Positions 7,059-53,919 of a DNA stretch of 64,000 nucleotides are shown here, piece after piece. Each line of letters starts with the position of its first letter. The first letter of the stretch is position 1. The notes beneath the pieces are model-generated. The model had not been told where the DNA came from and ran no database searches. It saw only the letters and a program-made list of their open reading frames with translations. The DNA comes from Macrolepiota albuminosa (lineage: Eukaryota; Basidiomycota; Agaricomycetes; Agaricales; Agaricaceae). A program made the translations under genes and the position numbers. The stretch covers positions 1,302,001 to 1,366,000 of the forward strand of contig JAMWFC010000032.1 of assembly GCA_027475525.1 (NCBI GenBank). The letters run 5' to 3'.

Positions 7059-8755
7059 ATGTCGCATATGCCAACACATTCCCCAACACCCCCACATACT
7101 AACGAGGTCGCGCCCCTCATGGCATGGGAAGCCTGGGACGTGTGGTACCAAGCTCACCTCAACTGGGAGCGCGTGGCGGCGCTCGCCCAACAATGTGAGT
7201 GCTCCCATGTCATCTGCTTATCGCCACTGACCTTCCTTTTCCAGAACAATGCAACATTCCTGCCCCAGAGGTGGGTCCCAGCCAGCTCCCAATGCAGGCC
7301 CCAGTGTCCCTCCAGAGTCCCATCTGAGTCATCCCACGCCCACCTTTGTGTGGATGACTGTCCACCCTCCCTGTCTGCAACCCCCTCCCTGCTTTAGGCT
7401 GCCTGCCCTCCGTTTTCGTCGTTCCTGGATGGTAATAGAGACTGTTTCAGAGGTCCTGGAAGATCAACGTGTTGTGTGGGCGGTTGTGATGCAGGAGTTG
7501 TTTGGGGAGGCCCTGGAGAGGCTCCGGGGTCTACCTGCCCATGCCTGGTGCGTGAGCAACGGACTGGTGAGTGGTCTCCTACCTCTGGTCTTCCTTGCTG
7601 ACTTTGGTGCAGTGCTTGCACTGCGCCCAACAAGTGGTCCCCTGCTTGTTCGAGGTTCCGGGCCCCTTGTCCCGCCGGGATACGTCCGTGTGTGAGGCCT
7701 GCCGCCTCAACCATGAGCAGTGTTCCGTGTTGTCGCTGTGGAGGGCGTGTTGTGTCTCTCGGGAGCAGGGGTGGCCGCTGGGGGGGGTCACCTGGAGGAT
7801 GGGGGTCAAGGAGCAGGATTGGGTGGAGCCGGTGGAGGAGGTGCCTGCAGCACCCAGTGGGGGTTCGGAGGGCTGAAGAGTCATCCAGGTGGGGGCTGGG
7901 GTTGCCCTGTGGTCCTGATCACATGTCGGGTGACCTGGGCCGGGACCCACAGCCACAAGGGTCGTGGGGGGCGCCCCGACAAAGGAAAGAGGTGGGTGTC
8001 GCCCAGTCCCTCTCCGGGGCCCTCCAAGAGGGCACGTCTGCTTCTGGAGACCCCATCCCCGGTCTCTCTCCCGTGTCTATCCCCAGCGGCGTTCTCCTCT
8101 CTGTCCAGGGGACTCCTAGCTGATGAAGTCGGGGTCCTGCAGGAGCAGGGGGGTCACAGGGAGGGGGTGAGGGAGGAGGCGGTGGCCAGGAGAGATCTGG
8201 AGGAGGGTCAGGAGGTGATGATCCAGGACCTGAAAGAGGCCAGGGTCGCCCGGAGAGAAGTGGAGGCCAAGTTGGAGGCGTTGCGGGCGAGGCTGGGGCA
8301 GGGAGTGGGGATCCCAGAGAGGGTCCCCTCGGGACAGGAGTTGATGGAGGGGCTGCGCTGCGATGTGGTGATCGCACACATGGCATCCTTGAGTGAGTCC
8401 TCTGTCACTTGCTCACCTCTTTTGCTAACGTCTCCAGGCTGGGCCCAGGAGCACCGTCTGCTCCTGGATGGGGCTGCCGTGGCACTCGCTGCGCTGCAGG
8501 AGGGGCAGCGCCTGGAGGTGACAACTCCTGGGATGGAGCGCAGCCTTGACCTCCTGGGGCAGCTGGTGGTCGCATACCGGCAGAGGAATGTGCCCGCCCC
8601 AGGATCCTAGTTTGAGCGCGTACTGGACGAGGGCGAGCCCCTCCTGTCCTGGGATCTGCTGGCTGAGGAAGTGTGGCGGGAGCATGGTCCAGAGGGGATG
8701 GGGGAGGATTTCCAGGGTTGGCCGAGGGGAGGGGTGGCGAGGGGAGTTCCGGTTC
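7059..8755 (+). pseudogene. A1 antisense Cys6/coiled-coil accessory gene (decayed copy)
   Basis: Colinear with the intact A2 gene at 25680-27439 and on the same relative strand, antisense to gag-pol. It starts MSHMPTHSPTPPHTNE. The conserved intron boundaries survive: GTGAGT after the first exon, GTGAGT before the Cys cluster, a shared acceptor (CCCACAG aligned with A2 GGGAG) and GTGAGT...TGCTAACGTCTCCAG near 8392-8437. All six cluster cysteines (CLHC, VVPC, CEAC, HEQC) are kept, while an extra non-cluster Cys is Arg. Frameshifts and a TAG in place of a Trp codon (8608-8610 region) make it a pseudogene. Confidence 0.7.
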
Positions 8756-23409: not shown

Positions 23410-24796
23410 CTACCCTAAAGAGGAAGACCATTGACGTGTACCTTTCACTTGATCTTTAGGTCGCCTGTGGGTAGGAGGAGCGCCTGGAGGTGGCGCGTTA
23501 GTAGATGGTATGGGAGGAATGGGAACACTAGGAGGAGGTGCAGGAGGAGCGCCTGGAGGAGCGGCAGAGGGGTTGAGGGATGAGTACCAACCGTCCCCAT
23601 CCAGGCGGGACTCAAACAATGGGAAAGGAAAGGCCATGCATTTGAGTATGGCTCTACGTGCATCAAGGTTGACGAGAGGAGGGAGAGGGAGCCAGGAAAG
23701 ACCCTTAGAGACAGCATGGAGTTAACAACCTAAGGTCAGGAAAAGATAAGAACTAACCAAGGTTCCCATTTTGCGGAGTAGGCTGGCCAGACTCAAAGTG
23801 GTACCCGTAACCGGCTCCTACACAACGCATGAGCATTAATCATGACTCGCACTAAGGGGAGGCGTACGGTGACCAAGGATGGGTCGACAGCGACCAGCCA
23901 CTCTTCAGAAGCAGCGAGAAGAATTTGGTACCTGCATACCAGGGTCATGGTGTTGCCGTTCTCGTGCAGAAAGCTGCCAGTAGGCATTAGAGCAAGAAAC
24001 TGCTCCAACCAATCTAAGATAATGGGATGGTAAAGACGTTTGGGCTCATCAAGGAGGAGGGGAAGTTCTGGCAGGATGTGATACTGACTGGGTTAACAGC
24101 GCCAGAACCCATAAAGTACCTCAAGCTACTTGCAGGGTTGCAGACACTTGGGAATTCTTACATGCGCAAAACAATCATGGGGGGGGCAACAACAACAATG
24201 CAATTCATAAAACTATGACAAAGAAATCAAGTATCTAAAATCTGTCAGCCACGGAAAAGAAGGAGCTGACTTACATAAACAACATGGGAGACGGACGAGC
24301 ATCAAGGACTGGGCAAAAGGAGAGGCCTGGGAGGCCTCCAGCCTTCAGCAGGACCGCAAAAAAGCCGGCCACCAGTAGACGAGCGGGGCGCCTAGTGAGG
24401 CAATGCGTTAGAAGAAAGAAAACGAGGTAATAAGGCAACGAACCAGATAGTGACTCTCCTCCAGCAGCAACTCAAGACACTCTTTTGTTTCCTTGGTTGC
24501 GATTTGCTTTATTTGGCAATTATCGGAAGAGAAGGAGGGCAAAAAAGGCAATAGCGCACCTGAAAAATCTGACTCCAGTTCTTCTCCATACCAAAATGGG
24601 TCAACGGCAGGTTGTTGTTCCAAATCTCACAAGCCACATGAAGTAGCTGGCAGTGATGACCTAACTCAACGACTCCGTTGGTTAGTCTGGGCATGCCAAC
24701 CGCCAGGTAGTGGTGGAAGAATGAGGTAGCACGTTCCAGGAAAGTGGGGAGATCAATCATGACATGAGCACGATCACAGCAAGAAGACCACACGAT
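23410..24796 (-). pseudogene. B1 antisense accessory gene 2 (3' part)
   Basis: Minus-strand exons homologous to B2 60486-61960: the Pro-rich C-terminal exon (23410-23717), GTTLSLASLLRKMGTL (about 23780), the helical exon RLEQFLALMPTGSFLHENG (23793-24008), QIKQIATKETKECLELLLEESHYLV (24408-24500) and DLPTFLERATSFFHHYLAVG (24700-24760). The gene is split by A2 within about the ninth codon. Its start and TATA box lie on the other side (36278-36330). Conservation of exon blocks across two diverged copies argues for a real gene. Confidence 0.65.
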
Positions 24797-25551
24797 TGTC
24801 AGGTTCCGCTGAGTCGGGGGCTTTCCAGAAAAGCGATTGCCCTTACAATGCGGACTTGACCCACGGATACTCGGGTGTCTGGAACTTCAGGGCTAGGACT
24901 CCGGAGTTTAAGACGTGGACAGGGGAATCCCGGGAGAGGGGACTTAGTCCGGGGGTTTTGGGTGATAGGTAACTAGGGAGTTCGGGTGGGGGTCGAGTCA
25001 TGAACCGGAGGTTTTAAGACGAGACCAAGTTAGTAAGTTAAAGTTGCGAAGTGCGTACCAGTCTTAGAGCACGCGATTATCCAAGGCGTGCCAGTCAAGC
25101 GTGCCAGTCAAGCGTGCCAGTCAATGCGTACCAGTCAAATAGAGGGCACACAACAATCCAAGTAATGCAATGTAATATCAAGACTGGCGAATACAACAGG
25201 GAACTATGCTATAAGTACTACGGGACCGGGTCTTGGGGTTCCGGGGTGTCTGGGGTGGGTTCCGGGAGTCATTGAGTAGCGGGTAGGGACTGTATACCTG
25301 GATCGCACGTGTGGGGCACGCGATCAATTGGCGCGGAGGGGGTTGTGATGCGTGATGCGTGATGGCCAGGAGCGAGTTGCGTGATCCGATCGTTGATTGG
25401 GGCTGGTGGCGGCTGATGGCCGTCCTTGATGCGCATGATGGCGGTGTCGGCGGTCGTGATGGCGGGGCGTGTCCTGTGGGGTCGGAGGGAGGGTCCCGGA
25501 TGGTGTTCCGGGGGTGTCCCAGGGTGGGCCTGGAGGGGAGGGGTCGTGACA
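24797..25551 (-). repeat. A2 3' LTR
   Basis: 755 bp, TGTCAGG...TCGTGACA on the plus strand. It differs from the partner LTR mostly at CpG sites and by one extra 13-bp GCGTGCCAGTCAA repeat unit. Confidence 0.95.
25086..25139. repeat. 13-14 bp tandem repeats in A LTR
   Basis: Four units of a GCGTGCCAGTCAA-like motif, the last one GCGTACCAGTCAAA. The partner LTR and A0 have three. In element sense the repeats lie just downstream of the inferred transcript start. Confidence 0.75.
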
Positions 25552-25679: not shown

Positions 25680-27439
25680 ATGTCGCGTATGCCAACCCAT
25701 TCCCCAACGCCCCCGCAAACCAACGAGGTCGCGCCCCTCATGGCCTGGGAAGCCCGGGATGCGTGGTACCGAGCCCGCCAAGACTGGGAGCGCGTGGCGG
25801 CGCTCGTGCAACAACGTGAGTGGTTCCCGCGCTGCTCGCTTGTCGCTACTGACCTTCCTTTTTCAGAACAACACAACACCACTGCCCCGGAGGCGGGTCC
25901 CAGCCGGCTCCCGGAGTCTGTTCCTGGGGCGGGTTCCAGTCACCCTGCGCTGACCTTTGCGCACATGACTGTCCATCCTCCCCGTCTGCAGCCCCCTCCC
26001 CGCCCTAGGTTGCCCGGCCCTCGATTCCGCCGCTCCGGGATGACAGTAGAGACAGTTACAGTGGTCCCGGATGACCGGCGCGTCGTGTGGGTGGACGCGT
26101 CGCAGGAGGTGTTCAAGGAGGTGCTGGAGAGGCCCCGGGGGTTGTCCGCGCACAACTGGTGCGTGAGCAATGGGCCGGTGAGTGGGTTCTTACCTCGGGT
26201 TTCCTGGCTAACTCCAGCATCACAGTGTCTGCATTGTGCCCACCGGGTGGTACCATGCGAGTTCGAGGTCCCGGTTCCTTCGTCCTGCCGAGACACGTCG
26301 GTATGTGAGGCGTGCCGCCTCAACCACGAGCGGTGCTCTGTCTCGGCGTTGTGGAGGGCGCGCTGTGTTGCACGGGAGCAGGGGTGGCCGCTGGAGGGGA
26401 TCACCCGGAGGATGGGGGTCAAGGAGCGGGACTGGGTGGTGGAGCCGGTGGACGAGGGGGTGGAGCCGGAGGGGGAGGTGCCCGCGGCGCCTGTGCAGTC
26501 GTCCAGCGGGGAGTCGTCCAGGTGGGGGGCCGGGGCCGGCCCATGGTCCTCATTACTCGTCGGGTGACCCGGGCCGGGACTGGGAGTCACGAGGGTCGAG
26601 GGGGGCGCCTTGACAAAGGGAAGAGGCGGGTGTCGCCCAGTCCCTTACCGGGTCCATCCAAGAGGGCGCGCCTGCCCGTGGAGACCCCGTTCCCGGCTCC
26701 CCAGTCCCCACCCCCGGCTTCCCCAGTGCGCCTCTCCCCAGCGATATTTTCCCCATTGTCAGGACGACCACTGGACGTCGGAGTGGGGGCTCTGCAGGAG
26801 CGTCTCGAGCAGGCCGACCAGGAGCGGGAGGAGCGAGAGGAGGCGGCGAGGGAGGAGGCGGCGATCCGGAGGGGGCTGGAGGAGGACCGTGAGACCGCCC
26901 TCCGGGAGCTGGAGGAGGCGAGGGTAGCCCGGGGAGGAGCCGAGGCCCAGCTGGACGCTATGAGGGCCAGGCTGGAGCAGGGGGTGGGGATCCCGGCGCA
27001 AGGTCCCTCGAGTCCAGAGTTGGTTGAGGCCCTGCGCCGGGACATGGTCATCGGGCGCATGGCCTCCCTGAGTGAGTGCCCTTTTTCTCTCGCTGTCGGG
27101 TTGATACTGATATCTCCAGGCTGGGCTCGGGAGCATCGCTTGCTTTTAGACGGGGCTGCCGCGGCGTTCGCGTTCCTGCAAGAGAGGCTACAGTCAGAGG
27201 CGGGGAACCCCGGGGTGGAGCGGGGTCTGGACTTGTTGGGGAGGCTGGTGGTGGCGCATCATCGGAGAAACGTCCCAGCCCCAAGGTCGTGGTTTGAGCG
27301 GGTCCTGGACGAGGGTGAGCAGCTCCCATCTTGGAACCAGCTGGCCGAGGAGGTGTGGCAGGAACACGGTCCAGAGGGGGTGGGGGAGGATTTCCGGGGT
27401 TGGCCAAGGGAGAGGTCTGGCAAGGGGAGTTCCGGCTAA
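25680..27439 (+). CDS. A2 antisense accessory gene: Cys6 cluster + coiled-coil protein
   Basis: Proposed join of 25680-25815, 25867-26177, 26226-26521, 26587-27071 and 27120-27439 (515 residues). Introns are 51, 48, 65 and 48 nt, with GTGAGT donors at 1, 2 and 4, branch sites CTGAC and GCTAAC, and phases that keep one frame. The third (GTGGGG...GGGAG) is required to move between open frames, and its acceptor aligns with CCCACAG in A1. Residues 150-186 hold CX2CX6CX15CX2CX6C, the spacing class of fungal Zn(II)2Cys6 domains. Then come a basic region (KGKRRV, SKRARL, about 258-277), a charged coiled coil (about 316-380) and a helical C-terminal domain (EHRLLLDGAAAAF onward). It runs opposite to gag-pol, between pol and the 3' LTR. 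Exact function is unknown; a nuclear DNA- or chromatin-binding role is inference. Introns 1, 2 and 4 are multiples of three and open, so retained forms are possible. Confidence 0.7.
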
Positions 27440-27672: not shown

Positions 27673-27934
27673 CCTTGCCCCGACTCCGGGGTGCTACTTT
27701 GAGGAGAAGGTACTAAAAAGGGAGTAAGATCTAGAAAGCGAAAGCAGAAAGTATACATGGGAGTTGAATCCCTACTGAGCCCAGAGGCGGGGGTTACGCC
27801 CACTACTGCCGTCTGTGAGTCCTGCGCCCGGGAAGGTCATTTCCCGAGTGCCGTTGTTGGAAGTCCTGGAGTTTGTCGAGGGCGCCTTCGAGGTTTCCGC
27901 GTGGTTCCCAGGTGTCGTCTTCCGGGCCGTATCC

Positions 27935-28088
27935 CTTCCACCGTACGAGGAAGTGGGGTCGTCCACGAATGTTCCGGGAGTCGAGGATGTCTTCAACTTC
28001 GTAGTGGTACTCTTCCACCGTACGAGGAAGTGGGGTCGTCCACGAATGTTCCGGGAGTCGAGGATGTCTTCAACTTCGTAGTGGTACT
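27935..28088. repeat. 77-bp tandem duplication (likely assembly artefact)
   Basis: 27935-28011 repeated at 28012-28088. It splits the chromodomain coding sequence into two overlapping frames. Confidence 0.9.
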
Positions 28089-30190
28089 CGTCCTCGACTT
28101 TGACCGGGGGAGGGGGCTCAGAGCGTCGTTCGGGGAAAGGATCCGGGAGGTGTCGCTCCAGGAGGTGGACGTGGAATACCGGGTGCAGACCTTTTAGTCC
28201 CAGGGGAAGCTCGATCTTGTAGGCGTGGGATGAGACCTTCTTCAGTATTTTGAACGGGCCGAGGCGCTTGTGATCGAGTTTTGAGGAGGGCCGGCGGGTG
28301 CGGAGGTGTCGTTGATCTAACCATACCTTTGTCCCGGGGGTCCAGTCGGGGGTGTCTTCCCGTTTCCGGTCAGCGTGTTTCATGTAGGCCTGGTTCACGG
28401 TGTCGATCTCTTCCCGGAGAAACTCGTGAAGGGACTGGAGATCCCAGGCGACCTCGTGGGCGGCGTGCGATGGGATGTCCTGGAGCGAGAGTGTTAGTCG
28501 AGGGTGGTATCCCTTGTTGGCAAAAAAGGGCGATACCCCGGTGGCAGAGTGCGGCGTGTTGTTGTAGGTGAACTCGGCCAGGGGGAGCTCAGCGCGCCAG
28601 TCGTCCTGCAAGTAGTTGACGTACAGTCGGAGGTACTGCTCGAGGGACTGGTTGACCCTTTTGGTTTGGCCGTCAGTTTCAGGGTGGTAGGCGGTAGAGA
28701 GGTTAGTCTTTACTTCAAGTGCCTTACACAGGGAAGTCCAAAACTTGGATACGAAGAGTGGGCCACGGTCGGAGACGATGTCGTCCGGGAGTCCGTGTTT
28801 GGCAAAGATGTGCTCGAGGAACAGCCGGGCAAAATCCGGAGCAGTGTCTGTGGTGTGGCAGGGTAGGAAGATGCCCTGTTTGGTTAGCCGGCACACAACG
28901 ATGAGAATGGCATCAAACCCTTCAGATTTCGGGAGTTCGACAATGTGGTCCAGGGGCGTCGTCCAACTGGCAGGGGTTTCAGGAGTCCGTATGGTCGGTG
29001 TCGGGGGACCTTGGCCTGGAGGCAGGGTTCACATGATCGAATGTAGCGGGTCACGTCCTTCTTCAACCCTGGCCAAAAGTAAGTCCGGGAGATCAGCTGG
29101 AGAGTCTTACGTATTCCAGGGTGTCCCCGGAGCTTGTGATCGTGGTGTTGATGGAGGACGTCGTAGCGGAGTCGGGCGTAATCTGGGACATAGATGCAGC
29201 CGTCCCGGAGGAGGAGTTTTTCATCGGAGGACAAGGAGAAGGCGGGGTCCTGGTCGGTTCCGTCGGGAGGGCTGCGGAGGTCATGGTCGATGAAGTACTT
29301 GTCTCGGGGGGCGCGGCGGATCTGGCTCAGGGTCCCTTCATCGTTTAAGATCAGTACGGCATTCAAATGTTCGGGAGGGATCACCACGCGATGATTGAAC
29401 ACATTGCGTTCCACCTCGAATGACTTCTTGGGATAGACGTCTGGGCGACGGGTGAGGGCATTGGGTTTAGCTCCGAGTCATCCTGGGTGGTACTGGATTG
29501 TGAAGTCGTATTCTGAGAGGACCTTGGACCATTGGGCCTGCCATCGACTAAGCTGCTTGGTCGTGGTGAAGTACTGCAGGTTGTTGTGATCTGAGTAGAC
29601 CTGAATCCGGTGCCAGGCTCCCTCGAGGTAGGCTCACCATTGCTTGAAGGCTTCGACGATGGCAAGGAGCTCCTTGTCGTAGATGTCGTAGTTGAGCTCG
29701 GCGTTGATCATGGACCGGGTGTAGAAGGCAACTGGCCGGGGCTCCCCTCCGTCAGGTTCCATCTGCGAGAGGATCCCGGCGATGGCGTAGTCGGAGGCGT
29801 CGCATTCCAGGATAATCGGGAGGGTCGGGTCGTAGTGCCGGAGTACAGGGGCGGTCGTGAAAGCCTCCTTGAGCAGGTTAAAGACACTCTGGCACTTACT
29901 GTCCCAGTTCCAGGCGACGTCCTTGCGCGTGAGCCGGTTGAGGGGTTTCGTGATACCAGAGTAGTTATCTATGAACCTCCGGTAGAAGTTAGCAAAACCC
30001 AAGAAAGATTGTACTTCCTTGACGTTCCGGGGCTGCGGCCAGTTGACGATGGCCTCGACCTTGTGGGGGTCCATGCGAATGCCATTCGGGAATACGATGA
30101 CACCAAGATACTCAACCTTTTCCGTATGGAATGAACACTTCTTGGGCTTGGCGTGGAGGTTGTGCTCCCGGAGGCGTTCGAGGACTTGCT

Positions 30191-35513: not shown

Positions 35514-36254
35514 TGTCAGGTTCCGCTGAGTCGGGGGCTTTCCGGGAAAGCAATCACCCTTACAATGCGGACTTGACCCACGGATACTCGGGTGTCTGGA
35601 ACTCCGGGGCTAGGACTCCGGGGTTCAAGACGTGGACAGGGAAATCCCGGGAGAGGGGACTTAGTCTGGGGGTTTTGGGTGGTGGGTAACTGGGGAGTTC
35701 GGGTGGGGGTCGAGTCGTGAACCGGAGGTTCTAAGACGAGACCAAGTTAGTAAGTTAAAGTCGCGAAGTGCGTACCAGTCTTAGAGCACGCGAATATCCA
35801 AGCGTGCCAGTCAAGCGTGCCAGTCAATGCGTACCAGTCAAATAGAGGGCATGCAACAATCCAAGTAATGCAATGTAATATCAAGACTGGCAAATACAAC
35901 AGGGAACTACGCTATAAGTACTACGGGACCGGGTCTTGGGGTTCCAGAGTGTCTGGGGTGGGTTCCGGGAGTCATTGAGTAGTGGGTAGGGACTGTATAC
36001 CCGGATCGCGTGTGTGGGGCACGCAATCAATTAGCGTGGAGGGGGTTGTGATGCGTGATGTGTGATGGCCAGGAGCGAGTTGCGTGATCCGATCGTTGAT
36101 TGGGGCTGGTGGCGGCTGATGGCGGTCCTTGATGTGCATGATGGCGGTGTCGGCGGTCGTGATGGCGGGGCATGTCCTGTGGGGTCGGAGGGAGGGTCCC
36201 GGATAGTGTTCCAGGGGTGTCCCGGGGTGGGCCCGGAGGGGAGGGGTCGTGACA
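35514..36254 (-). repeat. A2 5' LTR
   Basis: 741 bp, TGTCAGG...TCGTGACA on the plus strand, followed by the ACGAT duplication (36255-36259). Confidence 0.95.
35876..35917 (-). promoter_or_regulatory. A2 LTR core promoter and inferred transcript start
   Basis: TTATAG (35917-35912 in element sense) lies about 25-29 nt upstream of AGTCTTGATATTA, whose first base (35888) would be the RNA 5' end if self-priming is as in Tf1. R-U5 would then be about 375 nt. Confidence 0.55.
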
Positions 36255-36330
36255 ACGATGCCAGTTGGGCTTTCCATCATGAAGACTGATGAGATGCTGT
36301 CGAGGCATGGGCAATTTATAGGACTTGGGC
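36255..36330 (-). pseudogene. B1 antisense accessory gene 2: start codon and promoter
   Basis: The 5' end of the gene interrupted by A2: ATG at 36280/36277 (MESPTGI) and a TATAAAT box about 40 nt upstream, as in B2. Confidence 0.6.
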
Positions 36331-36803: not shown

Positions 36804-39800
36804 CTACACATCAGACTTGGAGGGAGTGGGATCACCCAAAAGAAGCAAGTCCCCATCCTGAATGGCATTACTTGCTTGCCACTCAAGCGCATCAGTAATG
36901 TTGTCATGAAGCTCAAGCAGGAGGAGCTCACAGCGTGCTAAGGTGGAAACACAAAGTCGTAGGAGGGTGAGTTTGCTACCAATGATGTCAGTCGCGTCTT
37001 CAACATGGCAAAGTTGTTAGCAGAGATCAGCAGCAGGACAAAGGGGAGTGACGGGATAAGAGAACTCATCCCCAAGCCAAGGGTAGGCGTTGCCAGAAAC
37101 ACGCATGGCGGGGGGAGGAGTCCAGAAGGGATCAAACTTAGCGGAGGTCAGAGAAAAGACAAACCAACTAAGAAATGCTGACTTACTCAAACGGTTATGG
37201 GAGCACGAGGAGTCCATTCATGGCGCTCATCGCCTGGGGACATAGCCCTAGCAGAGGAAAGGTGGATGCCATAGGAGGGCAAGTACCTCCAGCGGCGATG
37301 GCGCTCCCTCTGAGCCACTAAGGTCTCTTTGGACTCAGGTGTGATGGAGGACTCGTGAGTAGTGAGGAAGAAAGAGAGGCTACAAGGAGGAATAAGAAAC
37401 AGGGTAATGGGAAGAGCAACGGGGGAGGCGCTAGCCATGACAGGCTCAGGAACAGAAGTAGCACCGGCAACAGACATCATGACATCTTCAGTGGGAGGGA
37501 TATTCACGACGGCAGGAAGTGAAGGAGTAGGGGACCTGGCAACAAAAAGGTTAGTGTGACTGAAAAAGAAAACACAAGGACTACGCACCAATTACCACTA
37601 GAGCCGCTCTGATAAGGGTTAGCAGCGATAGGAGGAGTAAGGCAAAGCAGAAGAGCACGTACTGCCAACAGCACATTGGTGTCAACTATAGGCCCAGCCT
37701 CATCGTCATCCTTGCCCTCAGCATCCCTCTTGGTATCCTTGCCTTCATCAGTAGACAACTCAGTAGAAGACAAGACCATGGGAGTAGCAGGCGCTAGCTC
37801 CCGGCGCTTACCGGGACTCTTGCTAGGAGAGGCAACAACGGGCTTACGCTTTGAAGGGACAGGACAATGAGGAGAGCAGGCAAAGGGGGCCGCCACGGTG
37901 GTGCCATCTTGGGTGATGGGAAGCACTAGGCTTGCAGCGCTAATCACAGTGGGCTGATGAGTAGCAGCCAGATTGTGTTGCTGCAGCACAAAGGCCTGGG
38001 CATTACGAACTAAGACTGCACGCTCGTAATTTTGTTGCATGATAGCATCTCTACTGCTGTAGTACTTGGTGTGAGTATTACTGATAGTTCTGGGGCTTGC
38101 TGGTGTAGAGTATGACTCTTCAATCCACACTGACTTGATGATAAACTTGATGTATTAATGTTTTGAGTTGCAAACCCTAATCTTCTGGAATGCAGAGGGT
38201 TCTCAACAAACTCCAGCCTAAGCAATTCACTCCCTGGGAATCACCGAGCCTTTGCCTATCAATTGCCTGTCTATTCTCTACTAAACTTGGGCTATTTATA
38301 CTGTTTTTCTGGTGCACAGACCACTATCTACACATGACCCTTTGTTGTAAACTCCCCAACCTCCGAAACATGTTTGATAGTCCAATTTCCCTTTTGAGAG
38401 GCCTGTTTTGGTGCTACCAGTTCCACCATTCAACTTCCTGATCCATCATTCTTCCGGATGTCTCTGATTGCCACTTCCTCATTTGCTTTTGATCCATCAT
38501 TCTTCCGGATGTCTCTGATTGCCACTTCCCCATTTGCTTGAGCTCCATTTAGCACGTGCTTCCCTGCATTCCATGCTTCTTTTCTTTCCCCTTCCTGTTG
38601 TGTCATTGTCAGATCTGATCTTTGATCCAGATCACTACAATTTGATCCCATTTTGTCACTCCTGCCAGCTTCCATGCTTCCTCTCCCCATTACAGTAGTC
38701 GGACTATTGTTGAGCTGATAGTTTGAGCTGGTCCCTGCCTATTGCTCTGTACATTTCTGTGTATTTATTGGGATGTTTTGGAGATATATTTTTGTTGAGA
38801 CTGCTACCAGGAGGCTTACAGTTTTCAGCCCATGATTAAATGTTTATTTTGACTTCTGGTGCATGGTGTGTCCCTGACTGCTGGTACAGCATCGTATCAC
38901 TGCATTCACAAGTACAAATCCTATTGAAGGCACAACCCCATTTCCACGCATTGCAGTGGTAGCAGGAAAGAAAGGCGGTAGGAAACCAGCAACCCTCAGG
39001 ATCGTTCTCAGACCAACATTTATCGCACTGAGAAAGAAGTTAGCAACATCATCAACCTATCAGGGACGAACAAGCACTTACTACGCCAATCTTTGCCCTA
39101 AAAGCGCGACGCTCCATGGGTGCCACCGTAACCTTCTTCTTAGCACCAAGTACTTAGACACTAGCTGGGAGGCCGGTATCAATAACGGTAGTATTGCAAC
39201 AAAGGCGTAACAAATCATGAAGCTCTGTGTCAGTAAACATAGTCTAGTTGGGCACTTAAGGAGGGCCCGATCAGGTGCTAGAGCCTAGCAATCTTAAAAG
39301 GAAACACTTATGACATACAAAGGGGCAACACGAGCAGGGAGATTGATCTGGGAAGCAAAGTTAGTAGAAGAACTAGAGGCAGGTAAACAAGGATGCACAG
39401 TACATTTAGGAGGGCTAGCGAGAGCAGGGGGCATGCAATTAATAACAACAGCAAAGTTACAGGGGGGAAGGCAAGAAATAGTATGGGTGGGTCTGGGCCG
39501 GGGCTCACTAGCAGTAATGGCAATCTGTTTGATGGCCAAATGAGGAGGCGCAGTACAAGTGGGAGAAGCGATGATGGGCGCAGTATGAGTGGGAGAAGCA
39601 TTGCCACAAAAAGGACTACCAAGAACGGGAGGAGGTGGAACAGAGACAGGAGCAGCAGGAGTGGCCAGATCGGAGGGAATGGTAGAGGCCGATGGAGCAC
39701 TAGAGAGACTGGTGATGGTGGGCGACATAGCAACCGACTATTCAGGGTTAATATTGGAAACGTGAGGAAGAAGAGGAGAAACTTACTTTGCCAACTCTCG

Positions 39801-43031: not shown

Positions 43032-44981
43032 TTTTTTTGAATCCGCCAGCTAGGATCTATTGCCTAGCATCCGACGTCAGTCGTTGAGTTCGTTGACAGA
43101 ACTCTATCAGCTTCTCGAGCTTCTTGCACAGCCACACCGTGCAAATTTCAAACAGGGGATCGATGAGTAATCCCATACCTGCAGCGCCCACTGACGGCGG
43201 GCAAAATGCCCACAACCTACGGGGAGACCCAGCAGACACCCAGGACGCGTCAGCGTCCAATGCGGGTCAGGTAAGACCCAAGGCTCGAGACCGAGGTCAG
43301 AGTACCGACCTGGCCAGGAATGAGAGCGAGGCCCAGAGAGCTGAAAGCTCACAGCAGGACGGTCCGCAACGCCTCCAAGACAAGATGCCCGGGGGATTAA
43401 CGCCCCCAGTTACGCAGTTGCCAGGAGGACCGCAACGGTCTAGCCGATTGGCTTCCAAAGGACCCCCGCAGGACGGCCGACAGTCAACCGGCGCCTATGG
43501 TGCCCCAGGAGACGCCGAGTCGTCAGTACGGACTGGGAGAACCCTCCCTGCAAGCCGGAGCAGTGGGACCAGGCGGTCCACAGCGGGTCCAATGCCTTCT
43601 AAAGTAGCGGAAGCCCGCTTAGAAGAGGTACCAGAGGAGGCTGCAAGGCCTGAAGGATACTGCGCGGAAAATCGATTTCCATGCACACCAGCAGTGGAGG
43701 AAGCTCCGGAGGTTGTAGAGCTTCCAGAGGAGGTGATGGAGTCGTCAAGTGACGACGACGTCGGAGCAGAGGAACAGCGGCTGAAAACCGCGTACACCGT
43801 GCGCTTGCGGGTGTTCTGGGACTTGCACCCAGAGGTGATGAAATACACCACCCAAGCGCGACTTGAGCGCTACGCGTCAGCCCATATAGTAGCACTTAGG
43901 TGACAAGGGCACAAAGTGCCCAATGTATTCAGTACAAAATATACTGATTTGATGGTGAGAGTGCTCACTATGGAGCTGCAAATGTATGTGCAGCGTAAGG
44001 CCACACGGCAATCGGGGGTCTCGACCCCCTGGAGCCACACGTCAGAGGAATGCTCAGCACGACGCAATCAAGACGTCGGAATTGAGCTAGTGGAGGCACT
44101 AGCATGGGCGCAAGAAGTGCCTGAAGTAAGACCGGTGAGTACTTTTTATACTCCAGCAGGACAAGGGTGGTGTGAGGAGCCCCCGCACATGCGTAACCAT
44201 GACCGTAGGACAGATATGTCAGGTCCGGATGGGCACGATAGCACTGTGCTCAAAGTGGAAAGCGAGGCATCCGTGATGCCGCGCGTGCCCATGGCCAAAA
44301 CGTTGAGCGACAGAGTCGCGTATCAACGTATGCGCAATGGCGACCTCAGGACGAAGGGACAGTCCCTTATCGACGATCAGGGCATCGTATTCGAGGGCAC
44401 TAAGCCCATTGACAAGATGCGTCGTCAATTTGTCATGCAGGGTCAGGAGAATCAAGCTTCTCCAGGTCCAGGGCGGCGCAACGATCATGATCGAGGAGAC
44501 TTCCTCAATCGAGATGGTGCCACGAGACGTGATGTCCCTGGTAACGGCCAGGATGACGGCCCTAGGTCGATTCCTCGAGACGAGGGCAATTATGCCCACA
44601 GTCGAGGAGGCTCGGGACGTCCCCCGCAAGGTGGACGGGGGAAGTCACTTCCCCATGCCGCTGATTTGGCGACTAGATCCCCGGGTCAGCGGGAAGCCAT
44701 TCGAATGCATCGTGAAGCCATGCACGATCGCCTGCATCGAGTAGTCGATGATGCCCTGGGCGTAACCTTACAGTTACCAGACGGAGTAAAGCTGCATAAG
44801 GCAGACAGTAGGCACATTTGCGCCTATACAGGCACATCCAAGTTCAGCGACCTGGAAGATTGGGCGATGGATGTATGCACCCATCTTGCCATGTGCTTAT
44901 ACGGAGGTGACCGTATGGAACAAGAACGAATCTTCGTTCTGCCTGAGTTCTTGGCCGGAGAGGCCATGGGTTGGTTTCGAT

Positions 44982-45135
44982 GGGCAGTACTGCACGTCAA
45001 TCGTGTCCAATATGACTGGACATTTAAAGGAGTCCTTACAGGACTGTACGATCGATTCGGGCAGTACTGCACGTCAATCGTGTCCAATATGACTGGACAT
45101 TTAAAGGAGTCCTTACAGGACTGTACGATCGATTC
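44982..45135. repeat. 77-bp tandem duplication (likely assembly artefact)
   Basis: 44982-45058 repeated exactly at 45059-45135. Removing one copy restores the gag frame. Confidence 0.92.
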
Positions 45136-48100
45136 ATACACCCCTCAACGCTCCAGGATGCAAGGCGGGACTTCCAGTCCGCCAAGTACACCGAGAAGTT
45201 GGGAGTACAAGGGTTCTATGATACCCTTAATGACCATGCCCAGAACATGGCAGTATACCCGGACGGGTATACAATGCTCGAAACGTTCTTGGATGGCATT
45301 CCAGCGGATATGCGCCGCTATTTGATACGTGAGGACGGATTGTCCCCAGAAGTCAACGATGTGGAAGAATTTGTGGCATATGCCATCCGGTATGAGCAGT
45401 CTCTGAAGACTGCTAACCACTACAAACATCGGAGTGGACACAAAGGGGGACCCAGGCGACTACCGCCTGGTGGGACACCCTCACGGGGTCAGCATGTGGG
45501 GACCTTCCTGGCCAAAAAGACCGATTTGGACCGTGACTGCAACACGCGGTTTGTTGTATGCAGAACCCCTGCTGCGAACCGAGGGCGGAGCCGCCCACGC
45601 CCAGAGCGGGCGCCGGACGGCGAACGTCCTAAACCAAGGCCGGACTTCAAGCCGGCCAACCCACCGGGGCAGTCGGGGACTTGTTTTGCGTGTGGCCAAC
45701 CAGGCCACTACGCTACCAACTGCCCTGCGAAGCCAGGACCCCCGAGGAAGGGGTATACACCCCGCACCCACCTTCGAGCTGCACATACTGCAGCCGCGAG
45801 TGGGAGTGATGGAGACGTATCTGCCGAGTCTGAGGCGGAGCACCCCACAAACGACCAGGAGCCCCCAGAGGAGGCATTGGGTGCCGAGCCCGAGAGTGTG
45901 GTCGTGGAGGGGGAGGAGTACGTCACAGTCAACGTATATGACAACGTCTACGACAATGAGTATTACAGTCATGACAGCGACTCAGAGTGCCTAGCGGCGA
46001 TGACGGATTGGCCGTCCACAAATGATCCCAAACAGAATAACGTAGTTCGGATGAAGAAGGTGACCCTTCGTCGTGCAGAGGGCACTTTGCAGCGCCCAAC
46101 ATTGAAACGAGCAGACAAGGAGTGCCTGGTCTCGTATGTGGACGTAGACGGCCACAAGGCATGGACCCTATGGGACTCTGGGAGTACCACATCAGGCATA
46201 ACACCCCAGTTCGCCCATGTGTACGGAATATCCATGCAGGAGTTGGATACGCCATTGGCGTTACAGCTGGGCACCGTAGGGAGCCGAGCCATGGTGCAGT
46301 ATGGGACAAATGTGAATGTCCAAACGCCGGGCTCATGTAGCCAGGAATACATGGATGTAGCGAACTTCGATCGCTACGATATGATACTGGGAACGCCATT
46401 CATGCGGCGTAACAAAGTCATACTAGACTTTGACCAATGTCAGGTACTAGTGAATGGGAAAGTGATCCCAGCCGAACAAGCTACAGCAGACGACACTGAT
46501 AATCGTCTGCGACGTCATCGCACTATGGAGAAACGCAAGGACTCTCCATGACTTGGCCGGCGCAGAGTGCCAGCCATGGAGGATGTGGAGGAGGAAGTGC
46601 AGGCTATGCCTGGACTGAGCGCAGACCACAACGTGGTAATGATGAGCGAGGAGGAGTATCAAGCCTCCAAGAGGAGCAATGAGCGAATAATCGCTCCTGA
46701 GATTCGAGGCGCAAGGCCTCCAGACAAACGCCATTGAAAGGCGAGACGACGGGAGGACTCAGTGGATGTATGTCCACCTACGTCCTCACGAGTCAAGTTG
46801 GAAGACTTGAAAGACAGCATCCGAGAGGCGGAAGCCTCAGTAGAGGGGGACACACGGTCCCTATGGGAGCGACCAGCTCCCCTGCCGGAGTACGACTGGG
46901 CATACGACCCCCAAATGCCGCAAGAGTGGAACGAGCTGGTGGCAGCCACGTGTGCGCGAAATGCGCACCAGAGACGGATGACCGTCAAACCAGCGTATCG
47001 CCAGCCAGCCCCGGACAAGGTATCCATAGCGTACTCGCTTGTACATGAAGGAAGAAGCCTCGTGGCTTATAAGACAGCGGCAGCGGGTGCTCCGCTGAGA
47101 CTACATATACCTGATGACAGTGTCAATCAGGTGCTTGCAATGCGCGAGCAGTATGCACCGCCGCCTCGGCCACCCTCAGAGACGGTGGAAGTACTTCCCC
47201 CGGTGCGTATGAAGGGGAAGCAGAAGGCGACAAGCCTTTGTGAGGAAGATATTCCTCGGTTGCGTCAGCAATGGCAAGAAGAATTTGCCAACATGGTCAA
47301 TGGGACCAAGGAGGAGCTCCCGCCGTGGCGGGAGGTGAACCATGAGATTAATCTCATAGACGAGAACAAGCAGTATAAGTACCACTTGCCGCGCTGTCCG
47401 CGCGCCCTCCAGGAGCAACTACGCGATAAGACTAATCGCTATTTGAATGCTCAATGGTGGTCCCCATGCACCACCGCTCAAGCTGCACCGTTATTGTGCA
47501 TCCCGAAGAAGGATGGAACCCTTTGAACAGCTCTTGATGCGCGTCAGCACAATGACAATACCATAAAGGATGTAACTCCTTTACCAGATCAAGAGGTGAT
47601 CCGGGAAGACGTGGCTCGGGCAAAGTATCGCTCGAAGATTGACCTTACTGACGCCTACGAGCAGGTGCGCATTCGCACCGAGGACGTACCAAAGACCGTA
47701 TTTGCGTCGATCATGGGTACATTCACGAGCAATATAATGCAGATCGGAGACTGCAATGCTCCAGCAACTTTCCAGAGGCTAATGACCTCTATCTTCCGAG
47801 ACGTAATAGGACGGTTCATGCATGTCTACTTAGATGACATATTCATCTACTCGGATACTATGGAGGAGCATGAGCAGCACCTCAGAGTCGTATTCGAACG
47901 ACTGCGCAAGTACAAGTTGTACTTGAAGTGGAAAAAATGTGAGCTCTACGCTCAGAGTATAGACTGCCTAGGGCATGTCATAGACAAGCGGGGTATCCAC
48001 CCTGATCAGGACAAGCTCGATCGTATTCGGGAGTGGCGCACGCCCCGAAACTACAATGACATCCAACGATTTGTTGGCCTTGTCAACTACATATCGAGCT

Positions 48101-49833
48101 TCTTGCCTGATGTCACAGCCTATACTGGGCCACTTATGGCCATGACGCAGAACGGATCACCGTTCAATTGGAGGCCGTTGCACCAGCGGTGCTTCGAGAT
48201 GGTCAAACGGATCTGTACGAAGACTCCGGTGATTCGACCAATCGACCCTAGACGGGACGAGCCAATATGGCTCATTTGCGACGCGTCCAAGACAGGCGTC
48301 GGAGCCATGTACGGCCAGGGAAGCAGCTGGCAGACGTGCCGCCCAGCAGGGTTCATGTCGAAGAAGTTCACAACGGCCCAGCAAAACTATGCAGTGCACG
48401 AGCTGGAGACTCTTGCCATACTCGAGGCCCTCCTCAAGTGGGAGAATAAGCTGATGGGATACCCCATCCACATCATAACGGACCACAAGGCCCTTGAGTT
48501 CTTTAAAACTCAGGTGAACTTGTCGCCGTGCCAGCGACGGTGGATAGACTACATGTCGAGATACCAGTTCGACATCACCTATGTTAAAGGTGAACTCAAC
48601 AAAGTGGCAGACTGCTTGTTGCGCTACTTTGAGAGCGATGTAGTCGGGGAGGCTCACGAGCCTCATGAGTATGTGCAGGCAGACTGCCGCATAGACCCTG
48701 ATGGAGAGGATTTACCTCTCCACCGATACCAGGAGCTCAGGGAGCATGTCCTGGAAGTACACGCTATGCGTGATGATGAACGGAGGCGAAGCACTCGCCT
48801 CAGAGAGCAGCGTGAAGAACGGGACGTAGCCACCCAGTTGCTCAAGGAGCATGAAGCCGTGGACCCAGTGTCCACTAGGGAGCACGAGCACCACGATGTA
48901 CCCGTTACGCTTGCGGAGATGCTCGAAGGCGAATTGCCTTCATCCCAGCCTCCTAGCCTGGTCAATGACGACTTTCGGCAGGAGGTGGTGCAGGACTATG
49001 GCAATGATCCTCTCTTCGCCGAGATAATTGCCAATCCTGACGACCATCCTCGGTTCAGGCATGAGCCTGGTGGACTCATCACGACGGAGAACCGTCAAGG
49101 GGTGGCAGTGGTATGCCTCCCCCATACGCATACCATTGTTACACGGGTCTTGGACCAGGCCCATGCCCTGGTGGGGCACTTTGGTGCTGCCTGGACGCTG
49201 GGCTACATCCGGAGATGGTATTGGTGGCCACATATGGCCCAAGAAGTGACTAAGTTTTGCGCGTCATGCACAGCGTGTCAGAGGGCAAAGTTGCCCCCTG
49301 GATCCCCTCCCGGGAAGCTACACCAGCTACCTGTGCCGGTGAAACCCTGGGACTCAATCGGAATGGACTTCGTAGGTCCCTTTCCCGAGTCCAGAGGGTT
49401 CGATTACCTCTGGGTAGTCATATGCCGCATGACGAGCATGGTGCACCTCATACCGGTGCGAACTACGCTGATGGCTAAGGAGCTGTCGTGGATCTACCTG
49501 AGGGAGATCGTTAGGCTGCATGGGCTGCCTAGCACCATTGTGAGCGATCGTGACTCGAAGTTCACGTCTCAATGGTGGAGAGAACTCCACAAACTGCTAG
49601 GAGCGTGACTCCTCATGTCGACGTCCTTCCATCCTCAAACGGATGGGCAGACAGAGCGGGCTAACCACAGTATAGGTCAGATTTTGAGGGCAGTTGTTCG
49701 CCCTGACCAACGGGACTGGGTGGACTGGTGTCCACTCACCGAGTTCGCGATTAACGCGAGTATCTCGGATACCACAGGGTATGCGCCCTTTGAACTCAAC
49801 GGAGGGTACTTGCCCTCCATGCTGCACGAAGTT

Positions 49834-49987
49834 CGTGCTGATACGGTGGCTCACCGTGGAGTTGTCGAGTTTGCCAGGCAGGCCCTGGAGAACATCGCGG
49901 CAGCGCATGACGTGCTGATACGGTGGCTCACCGTGGAGTTGTCGAGTTTGCCAGGCAGGCCCTGAAGAACATCGCGGCAGCGCATGA
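49834..49987. repeat. 77-bp tandem duplication (likely assembly artefact)
   Basis: 49834-49910 repeated at 49911-49987 with one mismatch. Removing one copy restores the integrase frame. Confidence 0.88.
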
Positions 49988-50635
49988 CGCCATCATAGAG
50001 GCGCGAGTCTTCCAGGCAAAAAACGCCAATCACCGTAGGCGAGCGGACCCGCCAATAGCAGTAGGAGCGTTGGTCTACCTATCAACGCGTAATCTGAAGC
50101 TCCCAAAGGGACGGGCGAGTAAACTCTGCCCGAAATGGGTAGGCCCATACTGCGTCCTAGACGCAGAGCCAAGTACCTCCAACTACGTGTTGGAGCTGCC
50201 TCTGGCATTACAGGAACGACGCATCGTTCCTAAGTTTCATGTGTCGCTGTTGCGACCTTACAGCGCGTCTGACGATGTGCTGTTCCCTAACAGGGCAACC
50301 CCGGGCCCCTATGATTTTGGGGCTCGAGACAATGACGAATGGTTCGTCGAGTGCATAATTGGGCACCGGTGGACTGAGCGTAACACGCTCGAGTTTGAAG
50401 TACGATGGTCCCTGGGGGACACAACATGGGAGCCACACTCCCATTGCTCCAAGCTAGCGGCACTTGACCGTTATTTGGAGTTGAAGGGCGTTAAGCGCCC
50501 ACATCAATTAAGTAAGCGTGCCGGCGCTTAATTTGATCGGCAGTGCCAATCGCGGCTTGGCTGAGTTGGTCAGCAGCTGTGGCTGAAACACGTCTTAAAA
50601 GGCGAAATTTCTTTTTCGCTTTTTTTTCCCAACTA

Positions 50636-52850
50636 TGGACAGCATGCCCGTGGACTTGAGTGACCAGCAGCAGCAGCAGTTTGAGAGTACACCGTCGGTC
50701 TTACCGTCGGCTGAAGGGGGGGGCAGATGGCTCCCCCACTGACCCAAAATGCGCCCCAGTGGGGACAATCGCAACCAGCTGTGGGCTTCCCATAGCAGCA
50801 GCAACCACCAGCGGCGGGCTACCTGCCGCAGCAGCCGGTGATCAGTGGCTATCCACCACTTCAAACCATGCAGGGCAACTTCATGCCCCAGAACGCACCT
50901 GTGGGCGGCTATCAGCCCCAACAACCAGCACTGGGCGCTTATGCGCCACATCACACCGAGGGCCAATTCCAGCAACAGGCCTACGGGGGGCTAGTCAGCC
51001 CCCAAGCAGCGTCAGCATGGAGGCAGCTTGCCCCCGTACCGGCAACAGGGCAACTGGGGACACATCCTTTTCCCCAGTTTACCGCCCCGGCGCACTACCC
51101 TGGGATGGGTGGTGTGCCCGTAATGATGCCGTACCCCCCGGCTTGGATGGGGGCTTGGGGCGCAATGCCCCAGTACAGCGACTTGCATGAGTCGCAAGCC
51201 AAGGGAGGCCGGTCGATTTCCCTGTCGACCACAGCACCAATTGACAATCTAGAGGGACGCAAAGCATCCCTCGGGCAGGCCACCGCGGCCATCGAGAGTA
51301 CAGAAACTCTCAATACAGAACGGAGCATCAGTTCATCGGCTGATGCGCCGACGGAGAGCTTGGCCAAGCTCTCCTTGCTACAGCGGCTGGAAATGCCGCA
51401 CCAATCCGAGCCCAGCTCGGAAGAAGAGTCGCGTCCTCGACACGACAAAGGAAAAGCACGGGCTGTCGAGCCCACTCACAGCCAGGACTTAGTCCTGGCT
51501 ACCCTTCTCCAACGTCTGGGAGATAACGGGTACGATGTACCCGCAGAGTCATCATTCCTCCGCGATGCGGAGGCAGTCGTCCTCATCTGCCGGATGATGG
51601 ACGACATGGATCATATGCACGCTCAGCGCAAAACTGATCTCCTTGCCATTTCGGCCGCTCGTAAGCGGCAGACTACACCCCCGAGTCGGGACACCGACTC
51701 CAGCAAAAGGGCGCATCGGCAAGGAGTGGAGGACGCGCCCTCCCGCTCGATTAAGTTGAGCGTTGCTGCCCCCGGCTGGGAGGCCGGTCTAGGACGGGAC
51801 ATCCTCCCCTATGAAGATGTTCCTGCTCCAGCCGCCCCCCAGCTTATCCAGCGCCTCGCCAGCGGCGCGTCTGAGGTCGCGTCTTCGCAACCAGTATCCG
51901 TGGTATCCACCACGTACTCTGGGAAGCAGAGTTCCAGGGGCGTGAGCACACGCCCCATTGAGGCCAAGGCCTCACAACCCCAAAAGGATCGTCGGGGTAA
52001 GCAACTGGAAGGGCGCGCCTACGTCAACGTGCACTTCCCCGAGGATGCCCCGAAAGGGGCCCCAGGGGCTAACATCCCCTTTTTACCCGCTATACTGGTA
52101 GAGGGCCTGCCAGCCCGACTCCCGCGGTGTGTGTGGGCAATGGACCCACGATCTGAGAAGTCGGAGCCGGAGAGGCTGCCTTCCCCTCCCTCCGACGACG
52201 ATTGGTATGAGGAGCCTGAAGAGGCTCGTATGAAATCCCCAGTGCCGCACGAGACGGCGGCACAACGTATGGCGCGCGAACGGCGCAACAGCAATTGACG
52301 AGCCAAGATGGAGCGTCGGGCGCAGAACAGCGCCAAACAAGGGGCCGCCCTCCTTGAGGACGAAACCAGGCGCATCCCTGATGCGCTCGGTGTGGTGATC
52401 TACCGTGATCACACTATTGAGCGCCAGAACTCATTCTTTGGCGCGGGGTTGGCTCCCCAATTCTATTGGTCGCCAATGACCAATACCATCTTCGTCGGGC
52501 AAGAAGCCCGCGCAGCCAGGTCCTTTGAGGACGATAAACAGGGCAACGCCGCCGCGACGCCCCACAATAGTAAGGTGTACCAAGTTGCACCTCGCGGGTT
52601 TCCCCGCAGTCCTTGAGAAGTCCGCAGACTTCACGCACTGGTTAACAACCAGTTTACACCGCTTCGTCAGGGTCAGTTGGGCTACCTCTTGCTCAACGAA
52701 TTCAAGCGGGTGGCGCTCAACTGCCACCCTACGGCCTGAGACAGAGCTATGTCTCATTTACTCGACGAGGTCGAGTATAGGACTATCGCGGTACCCTTCG
52801 CGAGTCCAGAGGAGCAGGAGAACGTCCCGCGAATGATTGTGCCGTCGCGG
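50636..52850 (+). pseudogene. element C extra sense ORF downstream of pol
   Basis: Begins MDSMPVDLSDQQQQQFES about 100 nt after pol. One base is lost in an eight-G run at 50716-50723, and a TAG replaces an expected Gln codon (about 50791). From there one frame runs to the B2 insertion, crossing TGA at 52296, 52614 and 52738 (each a plausible CGA). The product would exceed 730 residues: an N-terminal Gln/Pro/Gly/Tyr-rich segment (50700-51180), a Ser-rich acidic middle, a short helical block (LATLLQRLGDNGYDVPAESS, 51497-51556), a basic region (AARKRQTTP) and a C-terminal region with MERRAQNSAKQGAALLEDE. No known domain is recognised. The spacer before it holds TTAAAAGG and a T-rich run that could be a separate promoter. 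Confidence 0.55.
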
Positions 52851-53919
52851 TGATAGGCTTCTACTCGGACTGAGCGCATCAAGGGACATTATAGGCCAAC
52901 CGACACTTGACGTACGCAGGACTCTGGCGACCAGTTGGGAGTATAGAGCAGCTCTAGCTCTGGCAAACTACTACAGGATTTAGAAATTTATCCTAACCCC
53001 TAGCTACCAAGCCTTCAGCACTCTCCTTTCACCTAGCCCAAGGACGAAGGAGGCTCATAACGTATAGCGCTAACACAACGGCAGGAGAGGACTATAACTA
53101 AACCCCGATCACTTCCAGAAGGAGCCAGCAGCAGGCGCTGCCATTAGACGAGGCACTTCAATCAAAAGTCTAAAGGGATCAATGACAGCGGCACCGGATA
53201 TACTTAAATCCGACATCTGGACCTGACAGGAACTAATACAATGAGTAGCGCTGACATTAGCGCTCACGGCGTCTGTCAAGGATTTTCCGACCATACCCCG
53301 GAACAGCCTGGCCAATCGGAGTTATAGAAAAGTGAGCAGACTCGTACAACTCTAAGTCAATATAGAGTCACCGCAGGTCGCCGTGGGTCATAACGCCGTT
53401 GGTCGCCGTCAGCCATGTGCACAAGGTCGCCGTTGACAGGTCGCCGTTAGAGTAAACCACGAGGAGAGGCGCTAGGAGGTAGCGCCGCAGATGGACTTGT
53501 ATCTTGGCAAACACGGTAGCGCACTGTATATAAAATAGCTACTTTTCATGTATATAACAACGAATTGTAACCCCTCGAGCAAACAGTTACACTCAGCGTT
53601 CAACTCGCGCTAGCCTCCTTTGACTTCGTCACTAAGTCGGGTGCTAGCTTTGTCTGTCTCGTCTTCATCGTTTACGGTGCCACCTACGGGCACAATACAC
53701 GGCGCTATTTGTCTTTTCTCCAATATCTTTGCCTAAACTACGACGCTTACCGTCTGCCAGGTAGCCCCCGAAGCGCTATAATCTAGCGCATCGTTTACTA
53801 CCTCCACTCGAGCACACCGGGACCCTGTCAGGACTCCTCACACCTACGCACGCCAAGCGCTGGAGACGGCGTTGTACTGCGTATACGTCCAGCGCATCCA
53901 ACCACAGTTGGTGTCATCA
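52851..53919 (+). repeat. B2 5' LTR
   Basis: 1069 bp, TGATAGGCTTCTACTCGG to GGTGTCATCA. A strong TATATAAAAT is at 53526-53535, with CA-rich sequence 25-30 nt downstream as a probable transcript start. Confidence 0.93.
53526..53535 (+). promoter_or_regulatory. TATA box of B LTR
   Basis: TATATAAAAT. The aligned motif is conserved in B1 (about 40982) and in the solo LTR (about 11910). Confidence 0.65.

Follow-up and report, generated by a model that had tools for sequence, protein, structure and literature searches.

Conserved spliced antisense genes with six-cysteine clusters in two Ty3/Gypsy retrotransposon families of a mushroom-forming fungus

Does the stretch at 25680-27439, which lies inside a retrotransposon and reads opposite to it, encode a protein that selection preserves, and if so, what might such a protein do for the element that carries it? 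A first-pass annotation of the window (the whole stretch of DNA analysed, 64 kb in length) had claimed that two Ty3/Gypsy families, here called A and B, each carry spliced genes between pol and the 3' LTR, opposite to gag-pol, and that one product in each family has a GAL4-like cluster of six cysteines (Cys6). Our data confirm the observation as a whole and support its interpretation in part. The Ty3/Gypsy elements of the window are nested, with A2 (minus strand) inserted within element B1, and the parts that frame the antisense genes are as follows.

24797-25551, minus strand: 3' LTR of A2, with 93.1% identity to the 5' LTR
about 35514-36254, minus strand: 5' LTR of A2
24792-24796 and 36255-36259: target duplication of A2, 5 bp, ACGAT
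27772-28896, minus strand: end of A2 pol, with the integrase C-terminus, a Tf2-1-like SH3 domain and a chromodomain (domain scan)
52844-53919, plus strand: LTR of B2, 5' side
56634-60344, plus strand: pol reading frame of B2, with RNase H and integrase zinc domains

The 93.1% identity of its two LTRs marks A2 as an old insertion. Complementarity links the 13 nt adjoining its 5' LTR with a stretch within the LTR, the arrangement of self-priming elements. The chromodomain match of the A2 window copy is truncated and falls under the cut-off of the Pfam scan; in the younger A copy L036 the integrase ends with SH3_Tf2-1 (E 1.7e-18) followed by Chromo (E 8.8e-15), which places family A among the Ty3/Gypsy chromodomain elements. 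A Pfam scan of B2 pol for a chromodomain gave no match, and the pol proteins of B and A are 22.8-28.6% identical over five aligned blocks. The window also holds a third Gypsy element (43124-52298, plus strand), to which A pol is nearer, at about 30-52% identity in aligned blocks, and which has a sense frame downstream (50838-52298) without a Pfam match.

The antisense gene of family A was resolved by aligning 39 loci from the same genome, chosen by similarity to the window copy.

25680-27439, plus strand: whole antisense gene of A2, opposite to the element, between pol and the 3' LTR
25680-25815, plus strand: exon 1, from the alignment of 39 copies with conserved GT-AG
25867-26177, plus strand: exon 2, proline-rich, with RPRG and WC conserved ahead of the cluster
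26226-27071, plus strand: exon 3, with the Cys6 cluster from its first codon, a basic stretch and a coiled-coil-like stretch
27120-27439, plus strand: exon 4, with conserved WAREHRLLLDG and the C-terminus
7059-8755, plus strand: antisense gene of the decayed copy A1, with the ends given by the first-pass annotation

Four exons, separated by introns of 44-51 nt, make up the gene, with about 535 codons aligned; GT-AG boundaries are kept in 37 of 38 rows at intron 1, in all 39 at intron 2 and in 38 of 39 at intron 3. In A2 the three introns measure 51, 48 and 48 nt and the reading frame stays open through them. Other lengths occur in 27 of 38 rows for the first intron (49-50 nt), in 18 of 39 for the second (46-47 nt) and in 9 of 39 for the third (44-46 nt). 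Since these conserved introns differ in length between copies, the frames 25680-26567 and 26312-27439 of the open reading frame list were rejected as the true product. The focal copy itself is broken: it is without 16 nt at 26512/26513 that are present in 15 of the 20 alignment rows shown, and its frame is therefore shifted in exon 3. Elsewhere in the genome the joined exons are stop-free over the first 500 codons in 15 of the 39 loci, and in 13 of these the C-terminal motif is also in frame (L022 and L031 being the exceptions); ten of the 15 form a single group whose members lie 0-2 nt apart over the gene. The pol end and an LTR both flank the gene, in the same relative orientation, in 34 of the 39 loci, the remainder being four loci with no pol match and one with no LTR match. 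The cysteine exon of A occurs at no fewer than 150 places in the genome, the best 150 candidates having been scored. In one locus, L024, the LTR and leader group with L036 and the gene groups with L023, a split that points to recombination between A subfamilies, perhaps by template switching.

Family B proved to carry a longer gene, of which the window contains a part, together with a second candidate gene on the same strand.

63373-63965, minus strand: exon 6 of the B2 gene, with the Cys6 cluster from its first codon, a helix and basic and acidic stretches
62970-63318, minus strand: exon 7 of the B2 gene
62587-62919, minus strand: exon 8 of the B2 gene, with the stop codon
36804-40159, minus strand: antisense Cys6 gene of the decayed copy B1, with the ends given by the first-pass annotation
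about 60486-61983, minus strand: gene X, a second spliced antisense gene of B, between pol and the Cys6 gene

Fifteen aligned loci give eight exons and 709-712 codons for the Cys6 gene. For B2 (locus L063) the window holds the last three exons; exons 1-5 lie outside it and the gene starts about 1.2 kb past the window edge. A model with seven exons gave a stop shared by the copies in exon 3, which a further short GT-AG intron explains, and was discarded. From intron 1 to intron 7, GT-AG is kept in 11, 15, 12, 10, 12, 14 and 14 of the 15 rows; almost every exception reads AT-AG and looks like G-to-A decay. The gene is open over its full length in four of the 15 loci (L062, L068, L054 and L057), and the other rows carry stops or frameshifts. 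B2 has an extra 77 nt in exon 5, a tandem duplication absent from the other 14 rows, and is therefore also broken, though its cluster exon is open. As had been proposed, decayed copies keep their cysteines: all six are present both in A1 (7613-7825) and in B1 (39027-38875). An insert of about 850 bp (38055-38904) interrupts the B1 gene; two other contigs, C54 and C123, carry copies of it at 97-98% identity, and it may accordingly be a young mobile element of another kind. Copies of both A and B show many C-to-T or G-to-A differences, often at CpG, and the splice donors of B decay from GT to AT; the C-to-T and G-to-A pattern looks like methylation-linked decay.

Among the best 80 hits of B pol in the genome, 60 have the cysteine exon 4-7 kb downstream, on the opposite strand in all 60, compared with 2 of the same best 80 when the upstream side was searched as a control. 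The figure of 60 is a lower bound, because both genome searches scored the best 150 candidates. A TATAAA motif stands 55-58 nt before the B start codon in all 17 loci looked at, including the divergent L068, with the starts of L061 and L057 located from the alignment; in B1 its position is 40216, with the gene start at about 40159 on one side and the LTR at 40306 on the other. The leader of the A window copy holds no TATA, and in the 33 of 38 scanned A copies that have TATAA within 600 nt upstream it occurs solely at -443 to -594, which is inside the LTR.

The case for gene X as a second antisense gene of B is weaker. Its predicted protein starts MESPTGIVW and ends in a basic tail, and the three exons read hold no Cys6 cluster. 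Over those three exons in three copies dN/dS is 0.31-0.47, compared with 0.74-1.09 in shifted frames, which suggests that it too may be a protein-coding gene.

Selection on the two Cys6 genes was estimated as pairwise Nei-Gojobori dN/dS, with copies picked by similarity to the window copies and pairs that are non-independent. For A, six pairs among four lineages (L036, L028, L023 and L022, the last of which shifts frame near its end) give 0.14-0.21 over 526-529 codons at dS of 0.25-0.66. Across all 45 pairs of ten copies the range is 0.14-0.60, the highest value coming from the close pair L025-L024, with stops in both. Shifted-frame controls for three pairs give 1.56-2.43. The pol end of A yields 0.07-0.43 (five copies, ten pairs), a range near that of the antisense gene, whose protein thus appears to be about as constrained as the integrase end. 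For B, comparison of L068 with L062, L054 and L057 gives 0.10-0.14 at dS of 0.68-0.85; the pair L062-L068, from different subfamilies, stands at 0.10 over 706 codons, and its shifted frames at 2.72 and 2.11. All 15 pairs of six B copies span 0.10-0.50, and the shifted frames of two closer pairs 0.84-1.48. This frame-specific dN/dS rules out chance open frames or non-coding decay in either family, and the values well below 1 in frame indicate that selection maintains both genes as proteins. The first-pass annotation had named a dN/dS near 1 across many copies as a refutation, which these values escape. Its accessory spliced antisense genes, alike in position and orientation in two Ty3/Gypsy lineages whose pol proteins are far apart, are also supported. 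In their coding capacity, conserved across copies, and in lying antisense to gag-pol in the interval from pol to the 3' LTR, the genes of A and B share two traits of antisense additional genes of the aORF-3R class.

What kind of protein is being maintained? The cysteines follow the spacing first noted, CX2CX6CX15CX2CX6C for A and CX2CX8CX8CX2CX6C for B, and each A cysteine is kept in 37-39 of the 39 loci. The spacing of Zn(II)2Cys6 proteins, CX2CX6CXnCX2CX6-8C, is matched by A, and B departs from it in the first half (X8). The basic and acidic or coiled-coil-like segments noted earlier are also there. In A the cluster is followed by the basic KGKRR..PSKRAR, a stretch that looks coiled-coil-like by eye and the C-terminal WAREHRLLLDG; in B by a helix (in a poor AlphaFold model) and then a basic and an acidic stretch. 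KGKRR..PSKRAR in A and SPGKRREL in B recur among the aligned copies.

The proteins are thus like the fungal Zn(II)2Cys6 family (PF00172, GAL4 type) in having six cysteines in two CX2CX6C-like halves, basic residues and a helical region after the cluster. They are unlike it in the CX15 loop of A and the CX8 spacings of B, and in their fit to the Pfam Zn_clus profile (PF00172), which A matches, where it matches at all, at 10.3-17.4 bits, under the 21-bit cut-off, and B fails to match. The description as GAL4-like therefore holds nearly for the spacing and does not hold for the profile. A further difference is that the A halves, where they match the profile, match it in swapped order. The half from C1 to C3 matches Zn_clus positions 17-36 at E 0.005-0.007 in two of three halves tested, and the half from C4 to C6 matches positions 2-14 in one of three, whereas the halves of GAL4 itself match in normal order. 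These comparisons used natural half clusters only; in the whole relatives P0004 and P0005, described below, the C1-C3 half was aligned to positions 13-35, for P0004 at E 0.8. The scores are weak and the halves resemble each other, and we take the matches as hints of a cluster whose halves may be swapped relative to the GAL4 type. Structure prediction gave poor AlphaFold models (mean pLDDT 55.9 and 41.2); the low-confidence model of A found no significant structure match in the PDB and no zinc-cluster structure. A sequence search of the PDB gave no match for P0004 and two chance matches for P0003.

Protein searches covering 5.8 billion proteins, each of which scored the best 7985-7991 candidates sharing most words, found relatives in Termitomyces alone, seven for A and one for B. 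Two A relatives, P0004 and P0005, have all six cysteines at the same spacing as A, P0004 with 39% identity over 74% of the query. Two others, P0006 and P0007, have lost some cysteines, and P0008, P0009 and P0001 do not contain the cluster region. The B relative, P0003, is 45% identical over 28% and keeps the B spacing. The cysteine spacing, whose loss in further copies would have refuted the first-pass proposal, holds within the genome and beyond it, with spacing and flanks kept in the protein entries P0004, P0005 and P0003.

Antisense extra genes of LTR retrotransposons are known. Grande, RIRE2 and Retand, which are plant Ty3/Gypsy elements, carry conserved antisense genes between pol and the 3' LTR in most copies (PMC7264820, PMC11963269); the protein of Grande gene23 is nuclear and the gene has its own promoter (PMC7264820), and DNA binding is predicted for Retand TRP28 (PMC7264820, PMC11963269). 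The A and B genes share orientation and place with Grande gene23, RIRE2 and Retand TRP28, and differ from the plant genes, as far as these are described there, in their four and eight exons and in the Cys6 cluster; the terms "zinc finger" and "intron" have 0 occurrences in the Retand paper (PMC11963269). Another case is brtn, an antisense gene of the Boty-like elements of Botrytis cinerea (Zhao et al. 2011, as cited in PMC7264820 and PMC8365987). Here too a Gypsy element of a fungus has an additional antisense gene at this position; the host is an ascomycete, unlike that of A and B, and brtn can be compared with our genes by the cited description only. Term searches found no antisense, zinc or accessory in the main text of the survey LTR Retrotransposons in Fungi (PMC3248453), and no antisense or zinc in a Laccaria survey (PMC3411680). 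No Cys6 antisense gene of a retrotransposon was named in the literature titles and abstract openings searched, with subscription papers mostly outside that set, and within these bounds the Cys6 version was not found.

Selection, a fixed place, conserved cysteines and basic stretches together suggest a nuclear, nucleic-acid-binding protein that acts for the element. The reading that we rank first, with about even confidence, is that A and B each encode a nuclear zinc-cluster DNA-binding protein that regulates its own element. The antisense gene would have a transcript of its own, begun on the side near the LTR (in B at a TATA box 55-58 nt ahead of the start codon) and then spliced. We infer that the protein then enters the nucleus, binds DNA as a zinc-cluster protein and has its effect in trans on the family's own copies, in transcription or integration most likely. 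Against this reading stand the Zn_clus scores of A below the cut-off and the absent match of B, the poor structure models, the lack of TATA in the A leader and, for a simple GAL4-like mode of action, the CGG counts in the LTRs given below. That a retrotransposon carries introns at all can be understood from its life cycle: being antisense to the genomic RNA, they would not be spliced out of it, so that they may survive retrotransposition with their splice signals unread.

Ranked second, and rather doubtful in our view, is a reading in which the cluster does bind zinc and the protein serves either as a cofactor of integration or nuclear import, tethering the pre-integration complex to chromatin, or as an RNA-binder. 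The basic stretches and the coiled-coil-like stretch would suit such a role, and Vicient and Casacuberta discuss roles of this sort for plant antisense genes (PMC7264820). It also gains from a search of the LTRs for CGG: neither triplets nor pairs are enriched in the A LTR plus leader (two copies) or in the B LTR against 500 shuffles, the highest excess, of direct pairs in the B LTR (12 vs 7.5), being reached by 51 of the 500. It loses from the weak resemblance of the A halves to a family of DNA-binding zinc clusters, and family A already has a chromodomain for targeting.

An anti-silencing factor, by which the element would counter its silencing by the host, seems quite improbable; both families have many copies, some of them recent and near-identical, which implies that something lets them escape, but Pfam scans of the proteins or their parts gave no silencing suppressor. 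Least probable by far is that the antisense RNA is the functional product, through double-stranded RNA or promoter interference, with the frame incidental: such transcripts can feed silencing, according to PMC7264820, but in divergent pairs dN/dS lies well under 1 in the reading frame and exceeds 1 in shifted frames, and splice sites and cysteines are conserved across genera. As the whole explanation antisense RNA is refuted by dN/dS, and it may coexist with the protein.

A separate question is whether the two genes have one origin or two. In both A and B the first codon of the cysteine exon is that of C1, after a phase-0 intron, and the genes share place, direction and a basic stretch after the cluster, all of which would be expected if they descend from one captured zinc-cluster gene. 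Against this, comparison of the A and B profiles with hhalign aligned half a cluster only (E 0.17, probability 0.4%), so that the proposed shared ancestry finds no support there in spite of the common exon start, and the cysteine spacings differ. The exon boundary also has another possible source. The host genome has 21 Zn_clus matches above cut-off, and inspection by eye of seven of these loci placed an intron 1-3 codons before C1 in three; the boundary common to A and B thus agrees with one or two captures of host zinc-cluster genes, and two captures may explain it. We consider a single capture unlikely. Five pairs of the host matches score equally, four of them on different contigs, and the 100-Mb assembly may for this reason hold two haplotypes or duplicated segments. 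As a broader and still tentative proposal, which we think less likely than the regulatory role by itself, Ty3/Gypsy elements of mushroom-forming fungi may have captured an intron-bearing zinc-cluster gene in antisense at least twice and kept it as a trans-acting transcription factor, the A protein representing a permuted and so far unnamed zinc cluster.

What LTR retrotransposons gain from antisense extra genes is a question that concerns plants and fungi alike. The strong constraint, the zinc motif, the conserved introns, the very recent A copies and the Termitomyces relatives make it testable here, and the conserved antisense introns provide a clean marker, as spliced reads can arise from the antisense gene only. 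HBZ of HTLV is a leucine-zipper protein. Like other retroviral antisense proteins it is described as a nuclear regulator with a promoter inside the 3' LTR (PMC11963269, PMC7264820), and the antisense-encoded nuclear regulator proposed for A and B may be likened to it by description only. If the A and B proteins bind LTRs, these retrotransposons would run their own transcription factors, much like retroviruses.
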